From a virus, in the IMG/VR virus record IMGVR_UViG_3300025543_000057, positions 1 to 43,991 of that record: 43,991 nt of DNA; one strand, 5' to 3'. Each line of letters begins with the position of its first letter. Within the stretch, counting starts at the first letter, position 1. The position numbers and the translations under genes were made by a program. Shown one piece after another: positions 23,292-41,841 of the stretch. The notes beneath the pieces are model-generated. The model was given only the letters and a program-made list of their open reading frames with translations. It ran no database searches and had not been told where the DNA came from.

Positions 23292-23308
23292 TTTGTCTAG
23301 TTTGTCAA
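23292..23308 (-). promoter_or_regulatory. TTGACAAA-N3-GACAAA motif, copy a
   Basis: TTGACAAACTAGACAAA lies on the minus strand in the gap between the DNA polymerase gene and the small membrane protein gene; the neighbouring bases GCGACAAAACAGACG give a second, opposite half-copy, so the site is partly palindromic. It may be an operator or promoter for the last part of the operon. Confidence 0.55.
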
Positions 23309-23329
23309 GCGACAAAACAGACGACGGGC

Positions 23330-25327
23330 CTATTTTTTGTAACGCTGGCCGACCCAGCCTTCGGCCTCGACAGGTAGCCCTGCGGCCCATGTGGGTGGGC
23401 TTCGCATGATCGCCAACAGGCGGGCGAGCGTGCCGTCAGCGTTGCCTTCGTCCGGCTCCGTCAACAGTTCGTCGTGGACCGTCAGGATCAGCGGAATGCC
23501 CTCGGCGTCCGCCGTGAGCATGGCGTCGCGCATCACGTCGCGGGCGACGGCCTGCGTCACGTTCTCGGCCAGCTTGCCGCCGTAGGTCCGCAGCGGCTCC
23601 CAGCGGCGCGTGTACTGGTTGGTTCCCCTGTAAGTGATCGAGGTCCGCCCCGGCATGTCCGGGTCCATCTCCAGCGTGGCGTTGCGGTAGACCAAGTGGC
23701 GTCCCGAAGGGAGCCGGATAACCAGATGCTTTCCCCACATGCCGACGCGGACGAAGCCCACATCGACATGGGTCTGAGGGTTTTCGAGAACGGTCCGTGC
23801 TGCGCTGTCCAAGTCCCACCAGAACCGGACAATCGCGTTGTTCGCCCGCCGCCACTCGGTGACGGCTTCCTCTGCTTCCGGGAGGGTCATTTCCACGCCG
23901 GACTTGGCGGCGGTCTCGATAAACTTGTCTTTGCCCATGCCGAACCCGAGGCCCAGCACCATGACTTTGCCGCGCTGGCGCAACGGACTGTCCTTGGGGA
24001 TCGTCTTCCAATCTATCCCTTTGACGCGACCGATGGTGTAGCGGTACACGTCCGCGCCGGACGCGAACACGTCCAGAATGTCTTGCTGCCCGGCCAGCCA
24101 AGCAATGACGCGGGCTTCGATCTGCGCGAAGTCGGCGACCGCGAGCGTGTGTCCGGGCCGGGCCACGATGCAGGCGCGCAGCAGGGTGGAGACAATACCC
24201 ATAGCGGGACCAAACAGGGCTTCGAGCATGTCGTAGGGCATACCAGCCTCCACCATGCGGGCCGCGCCGTCCACATCCTTGAAGTCGCCGCGTGGCATGT
24301 TTTGCAGTTGAATGAGCCGTCCGGCCCATCGCCCGGTCCGGTTGGCTCCGTAATATTGAAGCATCCCGCGCACGTCCCCGACCCCTTGAGCAGCCGTGCA
24401 AGCGGCCCACATAGCCTTGAGTTTGGCCGCGCTGGTCCGGGCAACGTCCGCGCGGATCGTGAGGATTTTGCGCTCCATGCCTATGCAGTCCGGGTGTTCC
24501 ATCCGCTCGGCAATGGTGTCCTTGCGCAGATCGTCGTGAGGATAGCCGAAGGCTTGAAGCTCTTTCAGCATCGCCGCTGTGGAGTGAACGCCCCGGACAC
24601 GCCTGCCGGTAAGCGCGTTCAGGCGCTGACTGCTCCAATGGGTCGCTTCTTCGGCGAGAACACTCAGCTTTTCCACGAAACCCAAGTCCACGCCGACGCC
24701 CTTCGCGTTCATCCGCTGGTCCAGCATCCACGTCTGCCGCTCGATTTCCGGCAGCGGCGGGAGGGTTTTGGCGATGGCCCGTTCGACTTCCACGTCCACG
24801 TCGCAATATTCCATGAGCCTTTCCAGCCGGGCAGGTTCATCTTCGTGCCACCACGTCGTGATACCCCGGCGAGGGTCGTGCTTGCGCGGTTTGCACATCC
24901 GCATCATGAGGGCGTGGCCCTCCTTGTCTTTCTTGATGGCGACGCCCGCCGCCGGGCCCGCCATGTCCAGCGACAAGGGCAGCCCCCAATAGGCGGCGCG
25001 GGCCATCGTGTCCGAGACTTGGGCCAGTGCCAGACTGTCCATTTGGGGGTCCAGACCAAGCTGACGGATCAGCGTCTTGTTCCAGATGCACAACTCGAAG
25101 GCCACGTTCCAGCCTTGGACCGTGCGCCCCCGGCGGACGTGATCGAGGACTTCGTGCGGGAACGGGTCGCCGATCTTCCAGCGGCAGACCGGATCATCGT
25201 CGAAGGCGAACGACATACATATGACGCGGGTACTGTGATGTTCCGCGTAGGTGTAGGCCCCCGTCCGGCGCAGGTCCGCGAGACTGATAGTCTCGAAGTC
25301 AATCGAGAGGATGGCGTCGGTGGTCAT
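23330..25327 (-). CDS. Family A DNA polymerase with 3'-5' exonuclease
   Basis: The 665-residue enzyme replicates the phage genome. The N-terminus shows the exonuclease Exo I motif S-I-D-F-E-T (Asp10, Glu12). The polymerase domain shows motif A A-D-F-A-Q-I-E-A-R (about 395-403), motif B region G-K-V-M-V-L-G-L-G-F-G-M-G (about 455-467) and motif C V-H-D-E (about 615-618), the catalytic aspartates being in motifs A and C. Phages of this type encode such an enzyme without the 5' nuclease domain of bacterial Pol I. The ATG overlaps the stop of the dATP/dGTP hydrolase-like gene. Neighbours are helicase, nuclease, SSB-like and nucleotide-pool genes, so this is the replication operon. Confidence 0.96.
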   Translation of the reverse strand: MTTDAILSIDFETISLADLRRTGAYTYAEHHSTRVICMSFAFDDDPVCRWKIGDPFPHEVLDHVRRGRTVQGWNVAFELCIWNKTLIRQLGLDPQMDSLALAQVSDTMARAAYWGLPLSLDMAGPAAGVAIKKDKEGHALMMRMCKPRKHDPRRGITTWWHEDEPARLERLMEYCDVDVEVERAIAKTLPPLPEIERQTWMLDQRMNAKGVGVDLGFVEKLSVLAEEATHWSSQRLNALTGRRVRGVHSTAAMLKELQAFGYPHDDLRKDTIAERMEHPDCIGMERKILTIRADVARTSAAKLKAMWAACTAAQGVGDVRGMLQYYGANRTGRWAGRLIQLQNMPRGDFKDVDGAARMVEAGMPYDMLEALFGPAMGIVSTLLRACIVARPGHTLAVADFAQIEARVIAWLAGQQDILDVFASGADVYRYTIGRVKGIDWKTIPKDSPLRQRGKVMVLGLGFGMGKDKFIETAAKSGVEMTLPEAEEAVTEWRRANNAIVRFWWDLDSAARTVLENPQTHVDVGFVRVGMWGKHLVIRLPSGRHLVYRNATLEMDPDMPGRTSITYRGTNQYTRRWEPLRTYGGKLAENVTQAVARDVMRDAMLTADAEGIPLILTVHDELLTEPDEGNADGTLARLLAIMRSPPTWAAGLPVEAEGWVGQRYKK

Positions 25328-25785
25328 CCTCGGGGTTCTCCGCCAAACAGGTCAAGCTGGTTCGGGTCGGCGCGCCACGGGGCAGACGGCTTGGGGGTCG
25401 CCGGGGACACACTGTCCGGGCCGGTGAAGCGGTCGTCCCACGCCACCATCTTGCGTTCTTCGTAGGCTGTCAGGAACGCGAGGCAGCAAAGCGCGTGCCA
25501 AAGGTGCGAATAGGCGGTTTCGTCGTCGAGGTCACCGAAGCAGAAGTTGGCCGTCGTCGGGCCTTTGCCACCCCACCACGCGAACAGGTGCCGGAGACAG
25601 GCAGCGTAGGGCCGGGACCATTTCATGCCCTTCTCCCAATTACGCTCGGAGTATTTCTTGGCTCCGGTGCCAAGCACGCTCGCCAGAGCGAAGGGAACTT
25701 CCGGGGGTATCAGGTCCATGCGGGCTTTGTCTTCGTCCGCCTTGTGCCCGGACACGAGATTGCGGGGGTTTACGTGATCGGCCAT
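25324..25785 (-). CDS. dATP/dGTP diphosphohydrolase-like protein (DUF5664 type)
   Basis: The 153-residue protein has the pattern of the 'dATP/dGTP diphosphohydrolase, N-terminal' family: K-x-D-x-x-R-M-D-L-I-P-P-E near the start, G-A-K-K-Y-S-E-R-N-W-E-K-G-M in the middle, then R-P-Y-A-A-x-x-R-H-L-F-A-W, and D-D-E-T-A-Y-S-H-L-W-H-A near the end, all acidic/His residues expected for a metal-dependent helical pyrophosphohydrolase. The C-terminal tail (after 120) is Pro-rich. It would remove or balance dNTPs. The ATG at 25785 has AGGAG about 8 nt upstream. It sits between a small gene and the polymerase gene, with overlap at the polymerase start. Confidence 0.8.
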   Translation of the reverse strand: MADHVNPRNLVSGHKADEDKARMDLIPPEVPFALASVLGTGAKKYSERNWEKGMKWSRPYAACLRHLFAWWGGKGPTTANFCFGDLDDETAYSHLWHALCCLAFLTAYEERKMVAWDDRFTGPDSVSPATPKPSAPWRADPNQLDLFGGEPRG

Positions 25786-25796
25786 TTGGGTCGCTC

Positions 25797-26015
25797 CTAT
25801 TTGTCGGGGTAGGGGTGGGCCGCGAGGTCTGCGACGAGGCCGGGCCGGTGGTTTACGGGCAGACCGTTCACCAAATTGGACCGCACGGTGAAGCCTGTGG
25901 ATTGTGCCTTGTGGTTGTATGGTTCTTTTTCCACCCAAACGTGGACCGGGTAGCCGCGCGCCTGCCAGTATCGGGCAATTATGGCCGCGAGGGCCTTGGT
26001 TCTTTTATGGTTCAT
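25797..26015 (-). CDS. Hypothetical protein, 72 aa
   Basis: The small basic protein begins with a Lys/Arg-rich helix (K-R-T-K-A-L-A-A-I-I-A-R-Y-W-Q-A-R-G), followed by a beta hairpin-like half (V-H-V-W-V-E-K-E-P and F-T-V-R-S-N-L) and an L-V-N-G-L-P turn. It is compact and probably a real gene: the ATG has ACGGAG 7 nt upstream and the frame fills the gap between the SSB-like and dATP/dGTP hydrolase-like genes. No family is recognised; nearby replication genes suggest an accessory role. Confidence 0.65.
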   Translation of the reverse strand: MNHKRTKALAAIIARYWQARGYPVHVWVEKEPYNHKAQSTGFTVRSNLVNGLPVNHRPGLVADLAAHPYPDK

Positions 26016-26043
26016 TTGTCGGCTCCGTTGGTCGGCAAAGCAG

Positions 26044-26070
26044 ACACGCCGGGCGAAATGCCCGGCGTGT
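26044..26070 (-). terminator. Perfect hairpin after the SSB-like gene
   Basis: ACACGCCGGGC and GCCCGGCGTGT pair over 11 bp around a 5-nt loop, 11 nt past the stop of the SSB-like gene. There is no T-run on the minus strand. It may partly stop or process the operon mRNA so that the SSB-like protein is made in excess over downstream genes. Confidence 0.6.
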
Positions 26071-26080
26071 GCGTGCCCTC

Positions 26081-26719
26081 CTAGAAAGGGAAGTCTTTGC
26101 TGTCGCCGTTGCCCGCTGGGGCGGCCACCGCGTTCACGTCGATGCCGAGGGCGGCAAGCTGCGAGTTGTCAGCCTGGGCGAAGGCGTCTTCGGGGTTGGT
26201 CACGACACGTCCGTCGAGGCGAGGCATGTCCGCCTTGACGATCTGGACGTGTTCGAGCGCGAAGGAAACCCCGCGATTGCCGGTGCTGTCGTAGCCGAAG
26301 GCGCGGACTGTGAAGCGAGCAAGCTGTCCGGCGAACACGTCGCTGGGGACCATGATCTTCGTCCCGGCAAGGTCAACCACGCCGGGAGCGCCGTCGGCCT
26401 CGTTGCGCCACGGGGAGATGAACGTGTTCGCATTTTCCAGACCATTGTAGGTCTTTTCGGCGGCGTTGCGGAAGGGGAGGCGAAGGCCCCTCACGAAGTT
26501 GGCGTCAGCGGCTTTGGCTGCGCCGAACTTCTTCCCGATTGCCTCCATCACCAGCTTGCGCAGGTCTTGGTAGGCGGTGGACCCGACACCGGCTTCATCG
26601 AAGGCCAGCATCGCGGAGTAGCGCGGGGCTTGGGTGGGGTTCGCCGGGTTGGTTGCGGCGGTGAACAGTTTCGGAAACATGAGTGCGCCGATGGGCGTCA
26701 TTACTGTGCCGTTGGACAT
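26081..26719 (-). CDS. Single-stranded DNA-binding-like protein (DUF2815 type)
   Basis: The 212-residue protein has the outline of DUF2815: an N-terminal P-I-G-A-L-M-F-P-K-L-F near the start, a P-F-R-N-A-A-E-K segment, and a beta-rich body with V-F-A-G-Q-L-A-R and R-G-V-S-F-A-L-E-H-V-Q-I-V. It ends in an acidic tail whose last residues are S-K-D-F-P-F, resembling the D-D-x-x-P-F tip that bacterial and phage SSBs use to bind partner enzymes. It probably coats ssDNA during replication. I chose the ATG at 26719, which has AAAAGGAG 8 nt upstream; upstream in-frame sequence is a shadow of the nuclease gene. It follows the PD-(D/E)XK nuclease gene by 14 nt. Confidence 0.85.
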   Translation of the reverse strand: MSNGTVMTPIGALMFPKLFTAATNPANPTQAPRYSAMLAFDEAGVGSTAYQDLRKLVMEAIGKKFGAAKAADANFVRGLRLPFRNAAEKTYNGLENANTFISPWRNEADGAPGVVDLAGTKIMVPSDVFAGQLARFTVRAFGYDSTGNRGVSFALEHVQIVKADMPRLDGRVVTNPEDAFAQADNSQLAALGIDVNAVAAPAGNGDSKDFPF

Positions 26720-26733
26720 GGGGTTAGCTCCTT

Positions 26734-28053
26734 TTAGTCCTTGAGGGGGTTGTTGATGGCCGGTAGATTGAAAGCCTCGTGTGCGGACCGGCTCCTGACA
26801 CGCGCACGGGGGTCTCCGTTCGGGACGAGTGATCGCCCGGCGGAATTTTTGACGACGTGTGGCGCGACCTCTTGGTCGTACCGCTTTTTGCCGACACGTT
26901 TCTGGACCTGCGCCGGGGACAAGATGGTCTCCGAAATGTAGTCCGAGGGGTCCAGCGTCGTGATCCCGTCCAGCGTCTTGCGCAGTTCGTCGGGGTCGGT
27001 GTCGGCCCACTTGCGCCGGGGGAGGGTCGGGACCAGCGCCCAGCCTTTCACGTCCCGGCCCGCTTCCCGGCGTTCTTTGGCGAGGGCTTCTGCGGCGGCC
27101 ATCCAAGGCTTGATGATGCTGATCTTGTCCAGCAGTTCCCCGAGGGCGTCGTCCGAGAAGGAAAGGACCGGGGCTTGCATGATCGTCGTGTCACCTGTGG
27201 CGGGAATGTTTTCGAGCGCAGCGCCCGCGAACATATCCTTGGCGGTGTCGAGGGACAGCTTTTTGGGGGCTTCGCAGGGCACAAACGCCGGACAAAACCG
27301 ACACCAATCGCCTGCGTTCGTCGTCTGGCCTTTGTCCTCCAGCGCCCTCTTGACGCCGTTGTAGAGGTCGTGCTGCGCCCACCCGATGATCTTGCTGGGG
27401 ACATACGAATGGGACCGGACGGGGCCTTCGGGGTGGTAGGCCCGGGGCTGGACTATCGTCGTTCGGACTTCCTTGACCGGCACCGGGCCTGTGGGGACTG
27501 CGTGTCCGGATGCGAGCAGCATGTTCTTCAACAGTTCGTCACTGATAGACCCGGCGGCGTAATAGAGAAGCTGCGGGTTGTCCGGCGTTTCAACCACGAT
27601 CCCTTTGCCGAATTTCAGGTCCGCGATAACCAGCACTTCCAGCGTGGGGTGGTAGGCAATGCAGTCGGACGTGCCGAACAAGTCGATGGGCAGCGCCGGG
27701 AGAGCGCCCCAGTGGATTTGGGGCGAAACCCGTTGCTCCAGCAGTACGATGAAGCCCATAGCCTTGAGGCCGCGAAGCAGGTTCACGTAGGGTTCGAGGG
27801 CTTCCGCAAATTCATCGTCCACGGCGATCTGATAGCCGTCCGCGTTTCGGGTCTGGCCCACGAAATCAGAGGGGTCTTTACCTGTGAGCAGGCAAGCCTC
27901 GCTAATCGCGTGGGCCAGTGTTCCCTCCGCCGCAAACGGGGAGGATCGGCGCTGTCCGTCGTCGTGGACCTGAGCCAGATGGAACGAAGCGGGGCAAGAT
28001 AGCCCGCGCTTCGCGCCACTGGCCGAAAAGGCGGAGTGGGCGAGCGGGGCCAT
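26734..28053 (-). CDS. PD-(D/E)XK nuclease with Fe-S type cysteines (DUF2800, Cas4/RecB-like)
   Basis: The 439-residue protein has a RecB/Cas4-like nuclease core: E-G-T-x-x-H (43-48), G-T-S-D (Asp130), A-D-L-K (Asp145, Lys147) and Q-L-L-Y-Y-A (161-166). Four cysteines fit an Fe-S cluster: Cys20 near the start and C-x2-C-x5-C (251, 254, 260), as in Cas4 and AddB. It is commonly encoded with DUF2815 and a helicase in phage replication operons, and likely processes DNA ends in recombination or degrades host DNA. Its stop is 14 nt before the SSB-like start, and its start follows the previous stop by 1 nt. The call is strong for fold, less for exact role. Confidence 0.88.
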   Translation of the reverse strand: MAPLAHSAFSASGAKRGLSCPASFHLAQVHDDGQRRSSPFAAEGTLAHAISEACLLTGKDPSDFVGQTRNADGYQIAVDDEFAEALEPYVNLLRGLKAMGFIVLLEQRVSPQIHWGALPALPIDLFGTSDCIAYHPTLEVLVIADLKFGKGIVVETPDNPQLLYYAAGSISDELLKNMLLASGHAVPTGPVPVKEVRTTIVQPRAYHPEGPVRSHSYVPSKIIGWAQHDLYNGVKRALEDKGQTTNAGDWCRFCPAFVPCEAPKKLSLDTAKDMFAGAALENIPATGDTTIMQAPVLSFSDDALGELLDKISIIKPWMAAAEALAKERREAGRDVKGWALVPTLPRRKWADTDPDELRKTLDGITTLDPSDYISETILSPAQVQKRVGKKRYDQEVAPHVVKNSAGRSLVPNGDPRARVRSRSAHEAFNLPAINNPLKD

Positions 28054-28054
28054 C

Positions 28055-28534
28055 TTAGGCTGCCGCCTCGCTGTTATTGGACGTGGCGAGTTTCACGTCC
28101 GCAAGGAACTCGCTGGCGCGGTCCAGCGGAACATCGGAAAACTGTTTGACCTTGTATTTGGCCTGCAACTTCGTGACTTCGCCCATCGCGCGTTCGCCGT
28201 CCTTGAGGAAGAAGTCCTGCATCAACTTGTTGGCCTGCTCTTTGGTGTCCTGTGGGGTCATGTCCTGCACCAAATTGTCGGTGACGGAGGCGTCGCCCTT
28301 GCTGTCGTCTTCCTTTTGATCGTTCGCCGGGGCGGCTTTTTTCTTCGTCGTCTTGCGAGGGCGGGTCGGGGTGTCTTCCACCGTGGCTTCGACCGTGCCG
28401 TCTTCGACCTTGGCCGCGCTGGTCGTGACAAGGTGCTGGTCCTGCGCGTTCAAGTGATTGTTCAGGGTTTGCAGGGCGTGCAGAAGGTCTTCGGGGCAGT
28501 CCGCGTTGATGGTGATGTGAATTTCAGCAGGCAT
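28055..28534 (-). CDS. Hypothetical protein with Lys-rich linker, 159 aa
   Basis: The first 45 residues have a beta-alpha-type segment (E-I-H-I-T-I-N and D-L-L-H-A-L-Q-T-L-N-N-H). A Lys/Pro/Thr-rich, disordered linker with T-K-K-K-A-A-P follows (70-100), then an acidic stretch and a C-terminal helical domain (100-155). ATG 28534 has CTGGAG 8 nt upstream; upstream in-frame sequence is antisense to nothing meaningful and lacks a site. It sits between the helicase and the nuclease genes, so a role in replication or recombination is likely. No family is recognised. Confidence 0.65.
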   Translation of the reverse strand: MPAEIHITINADCPEDLLHALQTLNNHLNAQDQHLVTTSAAKVEDGTVEATVEDTPTRPRKTTKKKAAPANDQKEDDSKGDASVTDNLVQDMTPQDTKEQANKLMQDFFLKDGERAMGEVTKLQAKYKVKQFSDVPLDRASEFLADVKLATSNNSEAAA

Positions 28535-28566
28535 AGGGGAAACTCCAGTTAGGTTGGGTTGGGTTG

Positions 28567-29937
28567 TCAGATAGTCCCGGCGCTTATGTCCACGCCGAGT
28601 AGGTCCATGAAGTCTTTGGCTTTGCGCCGCAGGGTTTTGATGATCGGCTCGTCCACGGTGCCATGCGCGTAGGCAAAGTAAACCGTGACCGATCCGGCTT
28701 GGCCGATGCGGTGGCACCGGCTTATCGCTTGGTAGTTCTGGACCGGGGTCCACTCGGGTTCGAGCAACAGCACGTCCTGCGCGGCTGTCAGGGTGATGGA
28801 GGTGTTGGAGGCCAATGTCTGCCCGAGAAACAGACGACAGCCGGGGGAGTTCTGGAAGCGGTCCACGGCGAGCAGCCGGGCGGAGTGCGGGGTGGACCCG
28901 TCAATCCGGGCTGTGCCGTACTTGGGAGCGAATGCGGCTTGCAGTTTGTCCAGCACAGATCGGTGATATGCGAAGACAACCAGCTTTTTGTCCGGGTCTT
29001 GCAACAGGTTCTTGATCCACTCAATCACGGCGGTGGCTTTTAGTTCCCCCAAAGCGCGGCGGCGAGAGGCGACGTGTTCGTCGTCCAGCAAGTCGTTCAG
29101 GGCCGTGCCTTCGGCGGTCTGGAGCAGAGCCGCCAGCCGGGCGTCGATGGGGTCGCCCTTGTCCTGCACTTCGAGCGGGAGCAGGACTTGTGTGATCGGG
29201 TCCAGATCGGGCAGCACGTCCCTTTTGAGCCGGGCCAGAAAGTAGGGCCGCAGGGCGTCGCGCAGTGCGGGAATTTCCTTCCGGTCATTGCCGTCGATCT
29301 GCCAGCCGAAATTCGTGTGCCGCATGTTGGTGAAGCGCATTTTGAAGTCGTGGTCACTTGGCATTTCGTTGGCGAATAGCTGCAACAGCATGGGGCCGAA
29401 AAGGCCGCGCAAATGGGGGTATAGCTCACCGACGTGGTTGGGGGTGATGGTGGCCGTCGCCAGCCAGACAGCGCGGCAGCGTTCCAAGACGGAGCGCGCG
29501 AGGTCCAGCTTGTTGCCGTAGACGGCGCGGGTCCGGTTGGCTTCCGGGTTCTTGAGGTAGTGGGCTTCGTCCACGAACGCCACACCAAAAGGGTCGGCCG
29601 TGCGGAGGGCTTTGATCAGCTTCGCGGCGTTCCTTGGGTTCTGGAGCCAATCTATCGTGACGATCAGCGCAAGCGGTCCGGGAGGGATAAGTCCGGCGGT
29701 GTCGTTGGGGTATGTGTAGACCGGGCGGGGCTTGGACAGCCATGTCCGGAACTGGATGGCCCACGAGACACGCCCGATGGCCGGGCAGAGGACCAGAATG
29801 CGGGAAAAGTTCCTCTGCTCGGACGCCCGGATCATCTGCATTGACTTCCCGAGACCCGCATCATCGCCGAGAATAGCGAAGTCGCGGGCTGCGAGAAAAT
29901 CAATTCCTTCAAGTTGAAAAGGCTTAGGATGGTCCAT
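28567..29937 (-). CDS. SNF2-type DEAD-like helicase/ATPase
   Basis: The 456-residue superfamily 2 enzyme has motif I D-D-A-G-L-G-K-S (25-32), motif II D-E-A-H (123-126), a motif III-like A-T-A-T-I-T-P-N segment, and in the second domain S-R-C-H-R-I-G-Q-A (motif VI) near residue 415. The pattern is that of compact phage SNF2 helicases. It probably remodels replication or recombination intermediates. It is encoded between an unknown protein and a Lys-rich one, in the leftward early operon. An 11-bp inverted repeat precedes its start. The enzyme class is clear; the substrate is not. Confidence 0.93.
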   Translation of the reverse strand: MDHPKPFQLEGIDFLAARDFAILGDDAGLGKSMQMIRASEQRNFSRILVLCPAIGRVSWAIQFRTWLSKPRPVYTYPNDTAGLIPPGPLALIVTIDWLQNPRNAAKLIKALRTADPFGVAFVDEAHYLKNPEANRTRAVYGNKLDLARSVLERCRAVWLATATITPNHVGELYPHLRGLFGPMLLQLFANEMPSDHDFKMRFTNMRHTNFGWQIDGNDRKEIPALRDALRPYFLARLKRDVLPDLDPITQVLLPLEVQDKGDPIDARLAALLQTAEGTALNDLLDDEHVASRRRALGELKATAVIEWIKNLLQDPDKKLVVFAYHRSVLDKLQAAFAPKYGTARIDGSTPHSARLLAVDRFQNSPGCRLFLGQTLASNTSITLTAAQDVLLLEPEWTPVQNYQAISRCHRIGQAGSVTVYFAYAHGTVDEPIIKTLRRKAKDFMDLLGVDISAGTI

Positions 29938-29962
29938 TTGAGTGTCCGAGCAGGGGGTTGAA

Positions 29963-30622: not shown

Positions 30623-30652
30623 GGTTTGGTTCCTCGTGTTTGTTTGCGTCGG

Positions 30653-30669
30653 TTGACAAAACAGACAAA
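30653..30669 (+). promoter_or_regulatory. TTGACAAA-N3-GACAAA motif, copy b
   Basis: TTGACAAAACAGACAAA, identical to the copy at 37.2 kb, lies 31 nt upstream of the start of the leftward 208-residue gene. Its + orientation would face away from that gene if TTGACA were a -35 box, so it fits an operator better than a promoter. Confidence 0.6.
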
Positions 30670-30714
30670 ACACGAAACCGGGGATCGCGTCAAGGGGCGG
30701 GTGGAAACTTTTTT

Positions 30715-31236
30715 TTATTTGGTGGGGGTGTTGAGCAGCGCCCAGCCGAGGCCGATCAGGGCGGCGTCCGCGCGGTTGTGGTCCATTTTGCGGGCAAAAA
30801 GGTGGGCATGGTTGGGGAAAATCTGGTTCGCACGGAGGCGTCCGGCGTCCTTGTCGCCCTTGGGTTGGCGGACAGCGCGCTGCCATTCTTGGGGACGAAT
30901 GAAGTGGACCGGCAGACCGAGGCCGGAGGCCAGCCCTGCAAGTGCGCCAGCCGTGTAGCCGAAGCGGAACATGGAGGTTACGCCTTGGCCCGGCATGGCG
31001 CTGACTTCTTCGATGATCACTGCTGCGACACAGAAGGGCGTCCGGATAAGAGGGACCGTCGCGGCCATGAGAAGCTGGCTTTTCTTTTTGCGGTTCTGCG
31101 TGGTGGTGGCCGTGGGAATATCGTGGACGGCGAGCAGGTCGATCTTGTCGTCGGCCACGGACAGCCAAGCAATAGCGCCGGTCAGGCCGGGGTCAATGGC
31201 GACGATGATCCGGGTGAGGGTGGGGGTCCGCGTCAT
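30715..31236 (-). CDS. RuvC-like Holliday-junction resolvase
   Basis: The 173-residue protein has the RNase H-fold RuvC set: I-I-V-A-I-D-P-G with Asp15, a central V-I-I-E-E-V (Glu76/Glu77) followed by Q-G-V-T-S-M-F-R-F-G-Y-x-x-G, and D-H-N-R-A-D-A-A-L-I near the end (His153, Asp157), as in phage RuvC-like resolvases. It cuts four-way junctions or debranches replicating DNA before packaging. The ATG overlaps the stop of the Cro-like gene (ATGA), so both are coupled. A 92-nt gap with the regulatory motif separates it from the next gene. Confidence 0.88.
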   Translation of the reverse strand: MTRTPTLTRIIVAIDPGLTGAIAWLSVADDKIDLLAVHDIPTATTTQNRKKKSQLLMAATVPLIRTPFCVAAVIIEEVSAMPGQGVTSMFRFGYTAGALAGLASGLGLPVHFIRPQEWQRAVRQPKGDKDAGRLRANQIFPNHAHLFARKMDHNRADAALIGLGWALLNTPTK

Positions 31237-31511
31237 GGGCGGGGCCCGGTGGAATGTGTCACGATCCGGAACAGATCGCGGGGGGTGATCCTGTTTGTGT
31301 TCATCAGGGCATAGACCAGCGCAGCCCGCCAGCGGTCCGGGATGCGGCGGCGGGAGGACCATTGGTAGACGGCCCAATCGGTCGGGAGGGGTTGGCCGGT
31401 CTTCGCGAAGTGCTGCCGGATGGCGTCCGGGGAGGTTCCGGCGGCTTTCAGGATGGCCGGGTCGTTCCACGCAATGATGGCCGGGTTGGTAGCGGTGGGG
31501 GTGGAGGTCAT
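31233..31511 (-). CDS. Cro-like transcriptional regulator
   Basis: The 92-residue protein is the first gene of the leftward early operon and is divergent from the XRE repressor gene, the position of Cro. It has L-K-A-A-G-T-S-P-D-A-I-R-Q-H-F (21-35), then W-A-V-Y-Q-W-S-S-R-R-R-I-P-D-R-W-R-A-A-L (46-65), the pattern of small Cro/CI-type helix-turn-helix proteins in which an A-V-x-x-W and R-I-P follow the recognition helix. It likely represses the lysogeny promoter. No strong ribosome site is seen. Two copies of the repeated motif and a strong terminator are in the region upstream. The call is by position and HTH-like pattern. Confidence 0.7.
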   Translation of the reverse strand: MTSTPTATNPAIIAWNDPAILKAAGTSPDAIRQHFAKTGQPLPTDWAVYQWSSRRRIPDRWRAALVYALMNTNRITPRDLFRIVTHSTGPRP

Positions 31512-31534
31512 GTTGCGATGTCCATCTGCAATCG

Positions 31535-31553: not shown

Positions 31554-31565
31554 GTTCGGTGTGGA

Positions 31566-31604
31566 GAAAAGAGGCGTCCGGGTGGAACCAGACCCGGACG
31601 CCTC
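31566..31604 (-). terminator. Intrinsic terminator in the early-operon leader
   Basis: GAGGCGTCCGGGT and ACCCGGACGCCTC pair perfectly over 13 bp around an 8-nt loop. On the minus strand the stem is followed by TTTTCTCC, so it should stop leftward transcription about 55 nt before the Cro-like start. Leftward early transcription from the switch would have to pass it. Confidence 0.8.
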
Positions 31605-31651
31605 GCCAACAACCGTGCGCCAAGGGGAACGCGGGTTGTCGGTCTTGCAGG

Positions 31652-31668
31652 TTGACAATAGCGACAAA
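31652..31668 (+). promoter_or_regulatory. TTGACAAA-N3-GACAAA motif, copy c (switch)
   Basis: TTGACAATAGCGACAAA lies between the divergent Cro-like and repressor genes, 75 bp from copy d. Paired sites in a switch region suggest repressor operators. Confidence 0.6.
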
Positions 31669-31726
31669 TGACGCGGGGTCAAGCGCCGCGTAGGGTGGTT
31701 TTGGGGGGCGTCAGCAAAAGACGCTC

Positions 31727-31743
31727 TTGACAAAATAGACAAA
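31727..31743 (+). promoter_or_regulatory. TTGACAAA-N3-GACAAA motif, copy d (switch)
   Basis: TTGACAAAATAGACAAA lies 118 nt before the repressor start. As a -35 box it would have only a weak -10 (CATGTC) 17 nt later. With copy c it is the best candidate operator of the switch. The whole 31512-31860 interval holds no convincing gene beyond these signals. Confidence 0.6.
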
Positions 31744-31860: not shown

Positions 31861-32277
31861 ATGGGTAGAGCAAAGAGTAATGCGCAGCGCGTCGAGTTAG
31901 GTAATTTTGGACAGAACCTTTATCGCGCGAGGCTGGAGGCCGGGATGTCCCAATCCGATCTGGCCCGCAAAATATGGGGCACAACGAAGGACAACAGGGG
32001 CTACATCGTGGCCCGGAACCGGGACCGGGTGTCCGCCTATGAGCGCGGCAAGGCCCAGCCCACCCATGAAAACCTGACCGCCATTGCGAAGGCGCTGGGC
32101 GTTACGGTCGAAGATTTGGCTCCGGACCTGCTGGCAGCGGACATGGGTGCCGAGGCTCCGACAATAGGCATGACGATGGTCAAGAACCGGCACGACAGAG
32201 TGCATTTGCAGGTCAACACGATTACGAGCTTGGAAAAAGCCTCGCAGGTGATTGCTCTCTTGAGCAAGGGCGAGTGA
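31861..32277 (+). CDS. XRE-family phage repressor
   Basis: The 138-residue protein has an N-terminal XRE/Cro-CI helix-turn-helix (about 15-85): F-G-Q-N-L-Y-R-A-R, M-S-Q-S-D-L-A-R-K-I-W, then an unusual insert of about 15 residues before R-V-S-A-Y-E-R-G-K-A-Q-P and L-T-A-I-A-K-A-L-G-V-T-V-E-D-L. It has no LexA/CI Ser-Lys self-cleavage domain, so induction must differ from lambda. The C-terminal 45 residues may dimerise. The ATG at 31861 has no ribosome site close by (AAGGAGG is about 20 nt away), so the repressor may be made from leaderless mRNA, like lambda cI. It is divergent from the Cro-like gene and followed after 1 nt by the excisionase-like gene. Confidence 0.82.
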   Translation: MGRAKSNAQRVELGNFGQNLYRARLEAGMSQSDLARKIWGTTKDNRGYIVARNRDRVSAYERGKAQPTHENLTAIAKALGVTVEDLAPDLLAADMGAEAPTIGMTMVKNRHDRVHLQVNTITSLEKASQVIALLSKGE

Positions 32278-33510: not shown

Positions 33511-33528
33511 GGCTACCTTAGACCGGGC

Positions 33529-33545
33529 TTGACAGATGGGACATG
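33529..33545 (+). promoter_or_regulatory. Degenerate GACA-type motif, copy e
   Basis: TTGACAGATGGGACATG follows the integrase stop by 18 nt and precedes the primase gene. A second related site, GACACAAGCGACAGA, is at 33587-33601. Together they form a pair of weak copies ahead of the primase-helicase gene. Confidence 0.4.
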
Positions 33546-33632
33546 CGGGGCGTCTTTTGGCGGCCCGTGTGTCGGTTTTGCAGAGCGACACAAGCGACAG
33601 ATTTTATTGGAACCATATCAGGAGTAATACAG

Positions 33633-36077: not shown

Positions 36078-36144
36078 AAGCCCGGCGCACAAGGGTTTCG
36101 CGTTAATGGCTGAAACAGGTGAAGTACCATGTACGTAACGACAG

Positions 36145-36181
36145 AGCCGCCTGTGACAAAAATCGTCACAGGCGGCTTTTT
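36145..36181 (+). terminator. Intrinsic terminator after the primase-helicase gene
   Basis: AGCCGCCTGTGAC and GTCACAGGCGGCT form a perfect 13-bp stem with a 7-nt loop, followed by TTTTT. It ends the rightward replication transcript and marks the left edge of the accessory block. Confidence 0.95.
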
Positions 36182-36414
36182 CACCTCTCAGATGTTACTT
36201 TTGGTGGTACGGGTTGGTGTTACAGAGCTAAACCATTGAAAACACATAACAACTACTTCCTATTTTTGATAGAGTAACAGTAAAATCATATATATATATA
36301 TATTCTCTATATGAGCGATTTTTTCCTTATTCTGTGGTGTATGTGTGTGTGTGGGGAAGTTTCCTCAAAAACGGGGTTTAGGTGAAGCAGCGTGACACTT
36401 CCTCTTTTCGGCCC
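36182..36414. other. AT-rich non-coding region, candidate origin
   Basis: This gene-free stretch contrasts with the GC-rich genome. It has an eight-unit AT run (36288-36303), several T-runs, a TTTTTTCC stretch and a GT run around 36340-36355. It lies between two convergent genes, right after the primase-helicase gene, where an easily melted replication origin could be. No clear iterons were seen by eye. Confidence 0.4.
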
Positions 36415-37041
36415 CTAAATGATCCCCATGTCCCGCGCTTTGCGCACGGCGGAAACCCACGGACCGACCTCTCCTGTGTCCGCGTGATGCAGCCATCCCC
36501 GGACCAACTCGAAGGACAGCATGTGGCAAAGCTGCGTCCACGTCATGTTGTCGTAGAGGACTTTGTTGACGACTGCCCGCTCATCGTGCCGCGCGGCCCA
36601 CACGGCCTTGAACGTCGGGTCCATCACGAGCGCCACCGGCAGACGGCTGCGGGCGACCAATTCTTGGACCAATCGACGCGCAGCCGCCGGTCGGGACTTG
36701 ATGGTCCGCCTCTCTTTTTGCGGCCGGTTGACGAAGATGCGGTGTTCGGTGTCCGTCAGATGGTGTCGGCAGTGTTCGGCTTTCCGCACGGCGGGTTGTT
36801 TGCAGTCCGGCAATGCGCAGCGGCGCAGGTTGGGACCACTCCACTGCGTTGCCCCCCTGTGGTCCTCCAGAGCCTGTTTAGCGCGCTCGGTGGGGGCGAC
36901 GGTCCGGGAGGACCGCTTGCGCTGCGTCGCCACCCCCGGCACCTTGGGGACCGCTGTGTCAATCATCGCTTTGTCCAAGAAGTGAAGAAGACCCTGCGGG
37001 TCCGTCGGTATCTCTTTAAGGGCTGTCCGGGTGGAACCCAT
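36415..37041 (-). CDS. Orphan zinc-finger-like protein (208 aa)
   Basis: It is the only leftward gene in the rightward half and is not recognised. Residues 1-70 are basic and disordered. Residues 75-94 hold a C-x4-C-x10-C-x2-H site (Cys75, Cys80, Cys91, His94, with an extra His93) that could bind zinc. The rest is helical with F-V-N-R-P-Q-K-E-R-R, R-R-L-V-Q-E-L-V-A-R and Trp/His-rich segments. The site suggests nucleic-acid or protein binding. I chose ATG 37041 because CAGGAGT lies 8-9 nt upstream; a longer in-frame extension would run through the GC repeat. It is divergent from the MoxR-type operon and may be a moron or regulator expressed in lysogeny. Confidence 0.7.
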   Translation of the reverse strand: MGSTRTALKEIPTDPQGLLHFLDKAMIDTAVPKVPGVATQRKRSSRTVAPTERAKQALEDHRGATQWSGPNLRRCALPDCKQPAVRKAEHCRHHLTDTEHRIFVNRPQKERRTIKSRPAAARRLVQELVARSRLPVALVMDPTFKAVWAARHDERAVVNKVLYDNMTWTQLCHMLSFELVRGWLHHADTGEVGPWVSAVRKARDMGII

Positions 37042-37132
37042 CGCGCCTACTCCTGATTTTGTTTTGCGGGTTGTTTGCCTGATAGGTATCGACTTCACCA
37101 GACAAAGCAACCAAAACGGCGGGTTGTTTGCC

Positions 37133-37195
37133 CCGGACCCGCCGGACCCGCCGGACCCGCTCGCCGCGCTCGCCGCGCTCGCCGGACCCGCCCGG
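37133..37195 (+). repeat. 9-bp GC-rich tandem repeat
   Basis: Four-plus copies of CCGGACCCG and three of CGCTCGCCG sit in the gap between divergent genes, all in 9-bp period. It lies 32 bp before a copy of the regulatory motif. It may be slippage-prone DNA or a protein-binding array. Confidence 0.85.
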
Positions 37196-37226
37196 CGCTT
37201 TTGTCGGTAGTGTTGCCCCGTTGCGC

Positions 37227-37243
37227 TTGACAAAACAGACAAA
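37227..37243 (+). promoter_or_regulatory. TTGACAAA-N3-GACAAA motif, copy f
   Basis: TTGACAAAACAGACAAA lies upstream of the MoxR-type operon. As a -35 box it has a CTAAAG-like -10 at 17-bp spacing, so this copy could be a promoter as well as an operator. Confidence 0.6.
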
Positions 37244-37329
37244 CGCCATCTAAAGATGTGGTCCCGGCGCATTTGTGGCCGGGGAGGCGGCAGCTATGCC
37301 CGTCGCGATCCACGAAAGGGACCAACCCA

Positions 37330-37413
37330 ATGCACGACTTTCTCCACGACCTCGCAGCCGCAACGGCCATCACTTTCTTGATCTTTGGCGTTTGCGCGCT
37401 GGCTCTCATCTAA
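37330..37413 (+). CDS. Possible 27-residue membrane peptide
   Basis: A short frame with GAAAGGGA about 9 nt before the ATG encodes a His/Asp-containing N-terminus and one hydrophobic segment (about 10-27). It stands 23 nt before the MoxR-type ATPase gene. A second tiny membrane protein ends the same cassette. The evidence is only the ribosome site and topology. Confidence 0.45.
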   Translation: MHDFLHDLAAATAITFLIFGVCALALI

Positions 37414-37436
37414 CCAATCCACAAGGAACCGAAACA

Positions 37437-38981
37437 ATGACTAACACTACACTTACAAAGACTGCCCGCACGATCCTTCGCTCTCGCGTCCGGCGACATG
37501 CCGAGGCGCTTAAAGCTCTGGACGGTCGCAAGGTGTCGGACCTGACGAATGCGGACCTGATACAAACCGCGCTTCTGTTGGGCCTTGTTATTCCCAGCCC
37601 GCGCGAATGTGACGCTTACGACGAAGCCAAAGCCAATGGTGAGCCGGTCCCCTTGAACCGCGCCGATGCCATGGCCTCCCGGTTGGGCTTTGGCGGTGAT
37701 GGTCTGGTTTACGTCGGCCCGGCGTCCGGCGCGCAGGCCAGCGCGGCGGGAAACGCAGCAGACGACGAAAGGCCGTCCAGCAATCCGGAAGACGACCGGG
37801 AACATGCTGAATACACAGTCACCTTGGACCTGTCGCCTGTAGACCCTGTAGACAAAGACGCCGCAGCCAAAGCGGACATTAAGCAGCAAGCCAAAGACAG
37901 GGCCGCAGCAATCCGTGAAAAGTTCGGTCGCGGCGATTTCGCCGGGTTCATGACGGACCTCGAAGCACTCGCTGAGACCGCGCTGACGCCACCACCCGCG
38001 CCCGTCGTCCGGATGGTCGGATATGTTGACCCGTCAAAGATCAAAGGGCAGGTGCCGCAGATTACCGGCGATCAAACAATGAAGGGCGCAGGTATATCTG
38101 CCCTTTGGAACGTGACAGACGCTAAAACGACCATGCCGACATATGACGCTGTGGACGCGCCCGGCGTTGATCCAGACTACATTTGGCCCGACCAGACCGG
38201 CCCGGCGCTGGCGGCAATGGCGCGCGGCGCAAACGTCTTGTTCTGGGGCCCAGCCGGGACCGGCAAAACGTCGTTCCCGCAGCAGGTCGCTGCTCGATGG
38301 GGTCGGTCGTTTGTGCGTGTCTCATGCACCGAAGACACCGAAGCCTCCACGCTGGTCGGCATGACTGTGCCGGACACGGCGTCCGGCGGCGTCAAATGGC
38401 AGGACGGCCAATTGGCGGCAGCGATCCGCAAGCCGGGCACGGTGATCTTGATTGACGAACCGAGCGTTGCACGACCCGGCGCGCTGTTCGTCATGCAAGC
38501 CCTGCTTGACCATGACCGCGCAATATATATCGCCGAGACCGGCGAGGTGGTCCGCTGCGCGCCTGACGTGGTGTTTGTGTTAGCCGACAACACCAACGGC
38601 ACCGGCGACAACACCGGCAGCTATGAAGGCACGCGACGGCTAAACCGCGCTTTTCTGGATCGGTGCGCGCTCACGGTCCATCTGGACTATCTGGCCCCAG
38701 ACCGGGAGGCCGTGGCGCTGGTTGCCCGGACCGGCGTTTCCCGCAAAGCCGCCGCCGCGCTTTGCAAGTTCGCGGCGCTGACGCGCGCAGATGCGGATAA
38801 AGGCAAAGTATCGCACGGGATCGGCTTTCGCCGCTTGCAGGCGCTCGCCGAGACTATCGCTTGCGGCGTTGACCCCGCGCAGGCGTTCCAGTTAGCCGTT
38901 CTGGAGACCGCGCCCCACGACGACGTGGAGCCGCTCCGGCAGCTCTGGACCAGCGACGTTAACGCCTCTGTATTTTCATAA
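37437..38981 (+). CDS. MoxR/CobS-type AAA+ ATPase
   Basis: The 514-residue protein has a ~200-residue N-terminal region with Ala/Asp-rich low-complexity sequence (90-165), then an AAA_5/MoxR-like core: Walker A G-P-A-G-T-G-K-T (271-278), Walker B V-I-L-I-D-E-P (336-342) and an A-D-N-T-N-G-T-G-D sensor I loop. MoxR-type ATPases act as chaperones with a VWA partner, as in CobS-CobT cobalt chelatase and gas-vesicle or NorQ-D pairs. The next gene encodes such a partner. ATG 37437 has AAGGAACC 7 nt upstream, nearly the same leader as the partner. The function in a phage is unknown; it may act on host metalloproteins or in lysogenic defence. Confidence 0.88.
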   Translation: MTNTTLTKTARTILRSRVRRHAEALKALDGRKVSDLTNADLIQTALLLGLVIPSPRECDAYDEAKANGEPVPLNRADAMASRLGFGGDGLVYVGPASGAQASAAGNAADDERPSSNPEDDREHAEYTVTLDLSPVDPVDKDAAAKADIKQQAKDRAAAIREKFGRGDFAGFMTDLEALAETALTPPPAPVVRMVGYVDPSKIKGQVPQITGDQTMKGAGISALWNVTDAKTTMPTYDAVDAPGVDPDYIWPDQTGPALAAMARGANVLFWGPAGTGKTSFPQQVAARWGRSFVRVSCTEDTEASTLVGMTVPDTASGGVKWQDGQLAAAIRKPGTVILIDEPSVARPGALFVMQALLDHDRAIYIAETGEVVRCAPDVVFVLADNTNGTGDNTGSYEGTRRLNRAFLDRCALTVHLDYLAPDREAVALVARTGVSRKAAAALCKFAALTRADADKGKVSHGIGFRRLQALAETIACGVDPAQAFQLAVLETAPHDDVEPLRQLWTSDVNASVFS

Positions 38982-39004
38982 CACAACAACAAGGAACCAA
39001 ACCA

Positions 39005-40963
39005 ATGACCAACACACCATCAACCCACAGCCCCAGCCTTTACGATTTTTCTGGCCGGGTGGTTTACTCGGACTTCGTGTCCGCTGCTGAAAAGACAATG
39101 CGCGCTATTTTGGCGCGCACTCAAAGCGGACGTTACCACCTCAAGATCACGCCCACGGGCGGAGAAAGCGCCTACGTGTCCACGTCCGGCGCTCAGACGT
39201 TCGATGTGGGCCTCCCCTCGATCCCAATGGACACTGTGATCACCGCAGAATATGCCCGGCGATTGCTGGCGTTCTTGATCCACGAGCTATGCCACGTTCT
39301 CGCCACCGACCTCGGCTTGTTGGGGGATTTCCACCGCCGCACGTTTCCCCTCGGCGTTACGACCCAGCTTGCCGCCGAGCTACTCAACCAAGTGGAGGAT
39401 TATTATATAGAGCGGGTCGCCTCGGACCCGCGCGGCCCGGTCGTCCAAAACGCGCCCGCGCTGCTTGGCTATCTTAACGACGTAGTCCAACAGCCCGGCG
39501 GTGCGCTGGCGGCGATACAAGCCACCCCGGCGGCCCGGCACGATCCCTTCCGGGAGGCGCAATGGCTGCTTTGCGCGCTGATCAATCGCCACGGCTGCCA
39601 GATTACGCCCGCGCTGGACCAGTACGCAGCCGACACGCAACAGGCGGCCACGCCCGCAGTCATGGTCGCAGTTCGGGAGGCGCTGACCGCGCTGGACATC
39701 TGCGCGGACAAGCTCGGACCGATTACTCCACGCGATCAGCACCGCGCCCAATCAGTTGACCGGCACAACATCACCTTTCGACTTATTGAGGCTCTCGCAA
39801 AAGCCAACAAGCCCAAGGACAAGGACAAGCCCAAGGACAACAACAAGCCCAAGGACAACAACAAGCCCAAGGACAACAACAAGCCCAAGGACGAGGACAA
39901 AGGCAAAGGCAAACCCGGCGAAGGCGACAAGCCCCGCGAAGGCCAACCCGGCGAAGGCCAACCCGGTGAAGGCGACAAACCCGGCGAAGGCGCAGGTTTA
40001 GCCGGACCCAGCCCACAGGCGAAGCAGACCGCGCTGGCCGCCGTCGCGCCAAACCTGACGCGACAACAGCGCGCGCAGGGCGCATCTACTACGATGGGGT
40101 CCGCGACACTTGCGGACCCGGCGAATGTCGCAAGTTTCCGGCGCAAAACATGGATAACGACCGAGAACAACGGCGAAGCCTACGCAGAGACGACCCGGCG
40201 GGTCGCCGCCGCTGTGGACGCCCGTGCGACAGCCGACGCATTTCGGCGCGGTCTGCAATCCGTCGAAAAAATCGTCACGCAACGGCGTTTGCAGTCTGGC
40301 AGGCTGGACCGTCGCGGACTGATGCGCGCTGCGACCGGCGCAAAAGATGTGTTTTCCCGCAGTACCATCACGCCCGGCGTGGACACGGCCGTTCTAGTCA
40401 TGGTCGATGCGTCGGGGTCGATGGGTAACGTAGAGATACTTCGCACGCCCGATGGGGAGATGTACGCTTCGCGCTGGCAAGCCGTTATTGGTGTTCTGGC
40501 GGTGATCCTGCCAGCACTTGACCGCGCACGGGCGCAAACCGCAGCGTTTGGCTGGACCGGCGGCATCCCTCGGCGCTCGGACGACGAAAGGGCGACTATC
40601 TTTCCGCTCAAGCCGTGGCACCAGCGCCCGCGCACTGTGGACCTGCTTGATGCTCTAGGACGGCAGCGCGGCCACGGCGGGACACCGATGGCCAAAGAAG
40701 TGCGATGGGCTCAGGAGGATATCAAGTCCCGCCGCGCCGACCGGCGCGTGGTTCTTTGGTTGCATGACGGCACCCCGAACGACGGCGACGGCACACGGGA
40801 GGCTCTAAGGATCGCGCGCGCGCAAGGCGTCGAACATTATGGCATAGGGATTGCTACATCTGCCCGCAAGACGTTCGGCTGGCGCTATTCGGCGGACGTG
40901 GATGACCTTGGGAAACTGCCAAAGGTGCTGGAGACCATCCTCCTGCAAGGTGTCCGTACATGA
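39005..40963 (+). CDS. CobT-like VWA protein with HExxH site and repeat linker
   Basis: The 652-residue protein begins with a metallopeptidase-like region: H-E-L-C-H (93-97) and N-Q-V-E-D-Y-Y-I-E-R about 30 residues later, where CobT-like proteins have a conserved Asn/Glu. A linker of Lys-Pro-Lys-Asp units and Gly-Glu-Gly units (about 268-335) leads to a C-terminal von Willebrand A domain whose MIDAS is D-A-S-G-S (468-472), with a later G-G-T-P and H-D-G-T-P. It should be the partner of the MoxR-type ATPase 23 nt upstream. Whether the HExxH motif is catalytic is unproven. The ATG has AAGGAACC upstream, and its stop overlaps the start of a 40-residue membrane protein. Confidence 0.88.
   Translation: MTNTPSTHSPSLYDFSGRVVYSDFVSAAEKTMRAILARTQSGRYHLKITPTGGESAYVSTSGAQTFDVGLPSIPMDTVITAEYARRLLAFLIHELCHVLATDLGLLGDFHRRTFPLGVTTQLAAELLNQVEDYYIERVASDPRGPVVQNAPALLGYLNDVVQQPGGALAAIQATPAARHDPFREAQWLLCALINRHGCQITPALDQYAADTQQAATPAVMVAVREALTALDICADKLGPITPRDQHRAQSVDRHNITFRLIEALAKANKPKDKDKPKDNNKPKDNNKPKDNNKPKDEDKGKGKPGEGDKPREGQPGEGQPGEGDKPGEGAGLAGPSPQAKQTALAAVAPNLTRQQRAQGASTTMGSATLADPANVASFRRKTWITTENNGEAYAETTRRVAAAVDARATADAFRRGLQSVEKIVTQRRLQSGRLDRRGLMRAATGAKDVFSRSTITPGVDTAVLVMVDASGSMGNVEILRTPDGEMYASRWQAVIGVLAVILPALDRARAQTAAFGWTGGIPRRSDDERATIFPLKPWHQRPRTVDLLDALGRQRGHGGTPMAKEVRWAQEDIKSRRADRRVVLWLHDGTPNDGDGTREALRIARAQGVEHYGIGIATSARKTFGWRYSADVDDLGKLPKVLETILLQGVRT
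39809..39996 (+). repeat. Lys-Pro-Lys-Asp and Gly-Glu-Gly coding repeats
   Basis: Several exact AAGCCCAAGGACAAC units followed by GGCGAAGGC-type units encode the charged linker between metallopeptidase-like and VWA regions. Exact DNA copies point to recent expansion. Confidence 0.85.
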
Positions 40964-41082
40964 GCGCCCGGCGCACTATCCAGACCCGCACCCGGCGCAG
41001 GCTGGCCGGGGAACTGATCGACACCGCCTGTTTTATCGCGGCGCTGTTGTTCGTCGTGCTGGCGGTCGCTGGGCTGCTCTGA
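40960..41082 (+). CDS. Small membrane protein (40 aa), coupled to the VWA gene
   Basis: The ATG overlaps the VWA stop (ATGA). The 40-residue product has a strongly basic N-terminus with seven Arg in the first 14 residues, then one hydrophobic segment (about 22-40) reaching the C-terminus. This suggests an N-in tail-type anchor. Coupling to the MoxR/VWA pair suggests a membrane partner. It is the last gene before a terminator. Confidence 0.6.
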   Translation: MSARRTIQTRTRRRLAGELIDTACFIAALLFVVLAVAGLL

Positions 41083-41100
41083 TCAAACCCCAGAACGATC

Positions 41101-41116
41101 TGTGACAAGTGTCACA
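41101..41116 (+). repeat. Short inverted repeat before the terminator
   Basis: TGTGAC-AAGT-GTCACA is a perfect 6-bp inverted repeat 15 nt upstream of the cassette terminator. It could be a regulator site or part of the 3' mRNA structure. Confidence 0.5.
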
Positions 41117-41130
41117 TTCCGCGAAACCGA

Positions 41131-41156
41131 AGCCGGGCGCATTGCCCGGCTTTTTT
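41131..41156 (+). terminator. Intrinsic terminator at the end of the MoxR/VWA cassette
   Basis: AGCCGGGC and GCCCGGCT form an 8-bp stem with a 5-nt loop, followed by a run of T's. It marks the right edge of the accessory block and separates it from the packaging/tail genes. Confidence 0.93.
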
Positions 41157-41217
41157 GTTGTCCCGGTCCCGGTCCCGCCGGTATCAATGCTGGACCAGCA
41201 ACAGGAGACCGCCACCA

Positions 41218-41565
41218 ATGGCACGCAAAACCGCACCCAAAACCAGCCCTGAAATCGGATCTTTCGCTTCGCCGGACCCGACAATAAAGGTCAGCAATGC
41301 TGACCTTAATTCTGGTGTTTTGGACCTTTCGGGATATAAAAGCCCGTCTGACCGCCTCTCGGATGACGCTGATTTAGCAAAAGAAACGCTGCGGCAGGTG
41401 TGTCGCGATCCAGCCGCCCCGGCAGCGGCAAGAGCGCAGGCCGCGCGGACGCTGGCGGAAATGTCTGGCGCGATTGGACGCAATGCCAGACCAGCGCCCG
41501 AGCGCGGCAAACCGGTCAGCGAGCTGACGCGCGACGAGCTGGAAGCCGAGCTGGCAGGCATATGA
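41218..41565 (+). CDS. Terminase small subunit (candidate)
   Basis: The 115-residue protein has a disordered N-terminus and a helical C-terminal half with L-R-Q-V-C-R-D-P-A-A-P-A-A-A-R-A-Q-A-A-R-T-L-A-E-M-S-G-A-I-G and E-L-T-R-D-E-L-E-A-E-L. Short terminase small subunits of alphaproteobacterial phages show this A-A-R-A-x-A-A-R-T-L-x-E pattern. TerS binds the packaging site and loads TerL. The ATG at 41218 has CAGGAGA 9-10 nt upstream. It lies about 3.4 kb (circular order) before TerL with fibre and lysis genes between, an arrangement partly like T7. It lacks a clear HTH, so the call is by pattern. Confidence 0.6.
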   Translation: MARKTAPKTSPEIGSFASPDPTIKVSNADLNSGVLDLSGYKSPSDRLSDDADLAKETLRQVCRDPAAPAAARAQAARTLAEMSGAIGRNARPAPERGKPVSELTRDELEAELAGI

Positions 41566-41828
41566 CAGCCCGGCGCAGCAAGACGCAGCGCAAGCGCGGC
41601 CCGAAACCTTGCAGCGCAGGCACCGACCGCTCCCTAGCCGAGGGAAGGTCCGGTCAAACGCGCGCCAAGAAGGAGGATGAACGCGCGCGCGGACATGGCG
41701 CGGACCGGACCCCGGACCGGTCCCGGACCGCCCGGACCCCGGACCCCGACCCCCCGGCCTGCCCCGGCGGTGGCGAGCTTTATGTTATATCCCGATTACA
41801 CCAAGCGCCCATTTTCCAGACTTTTTGA
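41562..41828 (+). CDS. Possible basic low-complexity protein (88 aa)
   Basis: The ATG overlaps the TerS-like stop (ATGA). The product starts with R-R-S-K-T-Q-R-K-R-G, has an Arg/Asp/Thr/Pro repeat part from GGACC-rich DNA, and ends with V-I-S-R-L-H-Q-A-P-I-F. The start overlap supports translation, but the composition may only reflect GC-rich repeat DNA. No family is recognised. Confidence 0.35.
   Translation: MTARRSKTQRKRGPKPCSAGTDRSLAEGRSGQTRAKKEDERARGHGADRTPDRSRTARTPDPDPPACPGGGELYVISRLHQAPIFQTF
41698..41757 (+). repeat. GGACC-rich low-complexity block
   Basis: About ten GGACC/CGGAC words are packed in some 60 bp, similar to the repeat near 37.15 kb. It lies 68 bp before motif copy h, as the other repeat lies just before copy f. 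Confidence 0.7.
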
Positions 41829-41841
41829 CAGTCCTGACAAA
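41825..41841 (+). promoter_or_regulatory. TTGACA-type motif, copy h
   Basis: TTGACAGTCCTGACAAA lies 101 nt before the fibre gene start. It is a weaker match to the repeated motif. The 41829-41942 gap otherwise has no features beyond the fibre gene's ribosome site. Confidence 0.45.

Follow-up and report, generated by a model that had tools for sequence, protein, structure and literature searches.

The viral contig analysed here over its full 43,991 bases (the window) belongs to a temperate tailed phage, and a short dyad-like motif recurs between its genes that is very probably an operator belonging to the phage's own immunity system, with the XRE repressor as a dimeric binder and promoter blocking as its mode of action. 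The motif is essentially confined to the gaps between genes, and about eight to nine candidate copies stand ahead of most gene blocks. The operator reading is based on the enrichment of the motif, its confinement to gaps and the occupation of the same gaps across different phages; the presence of two copies in each repressor/Cro switch, together with the overlap with promoter cores, makes an operator regulon the best explanation, so that the repressor regulon suggested in an earlier note on this DNA gained support. A repressor dimer would bind the TTTGWC-N6-GWCAAA dyad and shut out RNA polymerase, covering the -35 box in the repressor-side, cobS and post-polA gaps and the -10 region in the cro and ruvC gaps. 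Early, accessory and some late prophage blocks would be silenced together, the repressor's own synthesis would be limited, and the operators may be shared with the divergent Cro-like protein. Since the copies precede most blocks and occupy the same gaps in five distant phages, a single protein could keep the entire dormant virus silent.

The terminase, portal and virion genes run rightward at 1–21 kb, followed by a leftward block at 21.6–31.5 kb (polA, SSB, exonuclease, helicase, ruvC and the Cro-like gene), a rightward block at 31.8–36 kb (XRE repressor, excisionase-like gene, integrase and primase) and a region at 37–44 kb with cobS, cobT and a collagen-like tail fibre gene. Gene boundaries were those of the gene caller run in this analysis, and Rfam gave no match in the window. 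The nearest named phage, Mae-Yong1326-1, has the same gene order with a polymerase identity of only 46%. Closer by polymerase (48–54%) were a prophage (L155) from a metagenome-assembled genome of Devosia (Alphaproteobacteria) and the viral contigs G001–G004, of which G003 and G004 were counted as one, their sites being nearly the same; a further related phage, L170, was reached via the repressor. The relatives were recovered via alignment with Mae-Yong1326-1, and the repressor or polymerase sequence alone, used as query, found none. An exact-pattern scan of all viral contigs had G001 among the matches listed, the other single matches being uninformative.

The sequence TTGACAAANNNGACAAA was found exactly at 23292 (minus strand), 30653, 31727 and 37227 and with one mismatch at 31652, so the coordinates given earlier for these five main sites were right. 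From the weaker sites proposed alongside them, 41825 held with two mismatches and 20.0 bits, 33529 (33528..33545, plus strand, after the integrase) is doubtful with three mismatches and 11.1 bits, which is in the range of the genic background, and 33587 lay outside three mismatches and was left unsupported. With up to three mismatches allowed, the window contained 12 matches against 1.97 expected (sd 1.32), a number reached in none of 100 shuffles, and the symmetric pattern TTGWC-N6-GWCAA occurred seven times exactly and 19 times with up to one mismatch (3.4 expected). All seven exact matches are intergenic once the open reading frame at 36415 begins at ATG 37041, the start supported by a ribosome-binding site, which places site 37226 in a gap. 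A weight matrix was trained exclusively on sites from the other phages, in order to avoid circularity, and then run over the window. Its eight best matches (37226, 31726, 30652, 23292, 41824, 4329, 21447 and 31651; 17.1–30.8 bits) were all intergenic, against an intergenic share of 8.9% for the window and 21% for GC-matched 18-mers (p ~4e-6). The best genic match scored 16.3 bits, the ninth match, at 4360, was level with the genic background at 14.9 bits, and shuffles gave a mean best score of 14.0 with one outlier of 22.4. The placement of the sites in gaps was therefore confirmed, and an equal frequency inside genes, named in the earlier note as evidence against its reading, was not observed.

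The candidate operators occupied the same positions in the relatives. In the switch, the repressor-side site (31726..31743, plus strand, 28.6 bits) and the cro-side site (31651..31668, plus strand, 17.1 bits) correspond to the two copies already noticed there, and likewise two were present in all six phages that share the motif, the cro-side site of G001 being a one-mismatch match. The gap between ruvC and the helicase block, whose genes are on the minus strand, had an exact copy at 30652..30669 (plus strand), and this gap was occupied in all five relatives, giving one post-ruvC site in each of the six phages. Another exact copy was located after polA, ahead of the last genes of the leftward block (23292..23309, minus strand); the same gap was occupied in G001, G002, G003/G004, L170 and L155, with one site within approximately 45 bp of the polA end in six out of six. 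The best match of all (37226..37243, plus strand, 30.8 bits) was upstream of cobS, at the same place and in the same orientation in G001, G002 and G004, and a site was present there in all four phages with this region covered. These same four also had post-portal and fibre-upstream sites, some of them weak: in the window, TTTAACAAACCAGACAAG at 4329..4346 (plus strand, 19.6 bits) in the gap after the portal gene, where the relatives' sites are also found, accompanied by a weaker second candidate, GCTGACAGCCCCGACAAA, at 4360..4377 (minus strand); and 41824..41841 (plus strand) upstream of the collagen-like tail fibre gene, matched in G001, G002 and G003/G004. One more candidate, TTTGACGGTCCAGACAAA, was located near the likely attP (21447..21464, minus strand, 17.3 bits) and fits TTGWC-N6-GWCAA exactly. 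The original list had missed the latter site and the 4329/4360 pair and was in this respect incomplete. Its remark that orientation is inconsistent was correct overall, yet within a given gap the orientation is largely fixed (forward in four of four at cobS and five of six after polA, reversed in four of six after ruvC).

The motif scan of the genome and its relatives, which had been recommended as a check, found the motif enriched, rediscovered it without supervision and located it in the same gaps, with polymerases of the six motif-sharing phages being approximately 50% identical. Contigs G001–G004 had four to seven matches each at up to two mismatches and none in the reversed control, and at the same threshold there were none in six more distant relatives and Mae-Yong1326-1. 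Multiple copies confined to intergenic DNA, present both in the switch and at other transcription units and conserved among relatives, are what is found for dispersed phage repressor operators. Dyads of the TTG...CAA type are also common for host regulators of the FNR/CRP type, which might bind such sites and couple phage genes to host physiology. However, the spacing differs from that of FNR (TTGAT-N4-ATCAA), and the exact dyad occurred 18 times in the 4.4 Mb Devosia genome with the related prophage versus 14 in the reversed control, a background level indicating that it is no general host motif. Moreover, syntenic phages with another type of repressor, such as Mae-Yong1326-1, had no motif, which leaves control by a host regulator scarcely credible.

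The sites in the window read GACAAA-N3-GACAAA, and the direct repeat with a 9-bp period described previously is literally present, but what the binding protein recognises is more likely to be an imperfect dyad of 18 bp, TTTGWC-N6-GWCAAA, because the relatives' forms include TTGTC-N6-GACAA, TTGAC-N6-GTCAA and a perfect palindrome. tTTGACAAAACaGACAAA ranked first in an unsupervised motif discovery on the intergenic DNA of the six phages, and variants in the relatives were TTGTCAAAGCAGACAA, TTGTCAACAATGACAA, TTGACAAACAGGTCAA and TTGACAGAACTGTCAA, in the last of which two arms of 7 bp, complementary throughout, flank a centre of 2 bp. The outer letters TTTG and CAAA are conserved and complementary in the manner of an inverted repeat; the leading TTT would have no explanation in a direct repeat, and a third GACAAA unit at the 9-bp step was not enriched. 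The A-rich inner left half (inner AAAAC) is asymmetric, for which a pure dyad gives no explanation, and A and T at the two W positions showed no co-variation either way. As the dyad pattern had partly guided the selection of the aligned sites, the shape is best supported by the unsupervised consensus and the palindromic relatives taken together.

Several copies likely overlie promoter cores. In the ruvC gap, four of the six phages had CTTGAC at 22–26 nt upstream of the operator, with approximately 0.0013 expected per position; this spacing would bring the -10 region to the operator edge. In the window the likely -35 box of the helicase-block promoter (CTTGAC; 30689..30693, minus strand) would have its -10 region on the 30652 operator. 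The cro-side site covers the TATTGT of a promoter-like TTGACC-N16-TATTGT on the minus strand (31682–31655), the presumed -10 box of the leftward early promoter. The repressor promoter likely takes its -35 box from the repressor-side operator, whose TTGACA (31727–31732) has CCCAT(G/A)T downstream at about the -10 distance; this holds for the window and for G001 and G002 alike. The search for -10 boxes after all sites gave poor ones in several gaps (polA, fibre and portal), in agreement with the weak boxes reported earlier. Promoter occlusion is supported at some gaps and, because of these poor boxes, assumed at the others, where a block of elongation, as at the stoperators of phage L5, may be an alternative.

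The preference for an operator over a sigma-70 promoter was therefore well placed as to the operator, but the strict choice between the two probably does not apply, as the operator's TTGACA probably doubles as a -35 box at several gaps. That the motif is nothing but a phage-type sigma-70 element, a -35 box extended on its downstream side and without any operator role, is very improbable: TTGACA does equal the -35 consensus, and -10-like hexamers follow 17–18 nt downstream at the repressor and cobS sites, whereas conservation is equally strong in the right half, GWCAAA, and in the left, the site in the ruvC gap is reversed and has its separate CTTGAC 22–26 nt upstream, and there is no consistent -10 box, with sigma-70-like matches in the region near chance (6 versus 3.0). 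A strong terminator-like hairpin on the minus strand (31571–31604; 13 pairs, then TTTTCTCC), possibly an attenuator, was also present in the leader that separates the Cro-like gene from the early promoter; no such leader terminator was seen in the five relatives.

The likely binder of the operators is the XRE repressor (31861..32277, plus strand, 138 aa), and we infer its identity as the binder, its binding as a dimer and the resulting repression; the sites themselves, their confinement to gaps, their conserved positions and their closeness to promoter-like sequences were observed. Its Cro/C1-type helix-turn-helix domain was recognised by Pfam HTH_3 (E=9e-12; 45.3 bits versus a cut-off of 23) and the protein by a PHROG transcriptional repressor family, and the domain resembles the phage CI entries 3zhi, 3zhm and 6tri, which we take to be TP901-1 CI, as well as P22 C2 and the 434 repressor. 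In the structural model (pLDDT 84), an inserted beta hairpin (WGTTKDNRGYIVARNR) extends the turn that joins helices 2 and 3; this hairpin was present in all homologues found. The divergent Cro-like protein (31233..31511, minus strand, 92 aa), a possible second binder, had no Pfam match; with 56 positions aligned in each case, its model best matched Xfaso 1 Cro (Z 5.0, rmsd 3.3) and N15 Cro (Z 3.9, rmsd 3.7), both weakly. This protein may share the same sites, as CI and Cro do in well-studied switches. Its being the main binder in place of the repressor, the sites then turning genes down in lytic growth, is improbable: the weak resemblance to Cro proteins and the presence of close Cro homologues in the same phages as the motif speak for it, but exclusive use by Cro would be unusual given the sharing in known switches, and the position of the repressor-side site in every switch, on the likely repressor promoter, is compatible with either protein.

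For the XRE repressor as the binder, the motif-bearing phages had a recognition helix of the type RDRVSAYE together with a close Cro homologue; in L155 the helix reads SRWE and the motif is a slightly different version. The exact motif was absent at the loci of Mae-Yong1326-1 (RDRVSQYL), L154 (RDRLSHYV)/L180, L168 (RDRIGAYL) and L172 (RDRISVYL); in the record of L172 a single exact match was present outside the locus. The presence of the motif tracks the recognition helix, a correlation which may reflect shared ancestry, and the rule is imperfect since L174/L175, with the helix ISAYEMG, had no motif. One-mismatch dyads were in excess in L172 (7 versus 1.2 expected), L168 and L183/L185, all with other helices, and are perhaps variant operators.

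Dispersed operators as a kind are already known from P1, L5 and phiC31. The operators of P1 are asymmetric, and phiC31 has conserved inverted repeats of the 17-bp class in gaps near promoters, bound by its c immunity repressor; the present sites resemble the latter in being intergenic inverted repeats of this class near likely promoters, although phage and repressor are unrelated and the sequence is different. The single C1 repressor of P1 controls several separate lytic genes via its sites, one of which is described as promoter-occluding (PMC4713147), similar to the dispersed control proposed here but with another repressor family and sequence. In L5 and other cluster A mycobacteriophages, the repressor has many sites (stoperators) scattered along the genome, the majority in short gaps between genes and at positions conserved among relatives (PMC9283540, PMC6550527), a distribution shared by the present phage. 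However, a stoperator is an asymmetric 13-mer to which the repressor, having two DNA-binding domains, attaches as a monomer, and stoperators are oriented with transcription and mostly away from promoters, while the sites found here form an imperfect dyad, are not uniformly oriented to transcription and in several cases lie on promoter-like cores; given the dyads of the relatives and the gap-dependent orientation, they depart from the L5 type in shape and orientation. The arrangement of the repressor and Cro-like genes, which diverge from a region containing operators, corresponds to the lambda-type switches of the 434, P22 and TP901-1 XRE repressors, except that here sites are also present across the rest of the genome and the repressor is short, with the beta-hairpin insertion in its HTH turn.

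New here are this instance, the fact that diverged phages keep the sites in fixed gaps, and the likelihood that the same letters serve as both operator and promoter elements. It is conceivable, albeit doubtful, that these alphaproteobacterial phages represent an unusual form of genome-wide silencing, in which a short hairpin-extended XRE repressor would directly repress early, cobS/cobT and structural blocks through palindromic sites doubling as -35 or -10 elements, with a specificity that co-varies with the recognition helix despite a common gene order. The fixed positions despite approximately 50% protein divergence, next to syntenic neighbours without sites, offer a natural series for the evolution of repressor specificity and superinfection immunity. 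For this group of temperate phages, which has received little study and for which only the so-called Microcystis phage Mae-Yong1326-1 and a Devosia prophage could be named as relatives here, the named sites and proteins add up to a regulatory map that can be tested.

The likely attP (21240–21286) corresponded to the 3' half of a tRNA-Thr whose anticodon, by visual inspection, is GGU, and was located approximately 11 kb from the integrase, between the late and early blocks. Its identity over 47 bp was 95.7% with Mae-Yong1326-1, 93.6% with the Devosia prophage L155 and 78% with G003/G004. Record OP028995.1 (L008/L009), whose described host is the cyanobacterium Microcystis, had its gene order, integrase and attP in common with the Devosia prophage, and its natural host range may therefore merit a second look.
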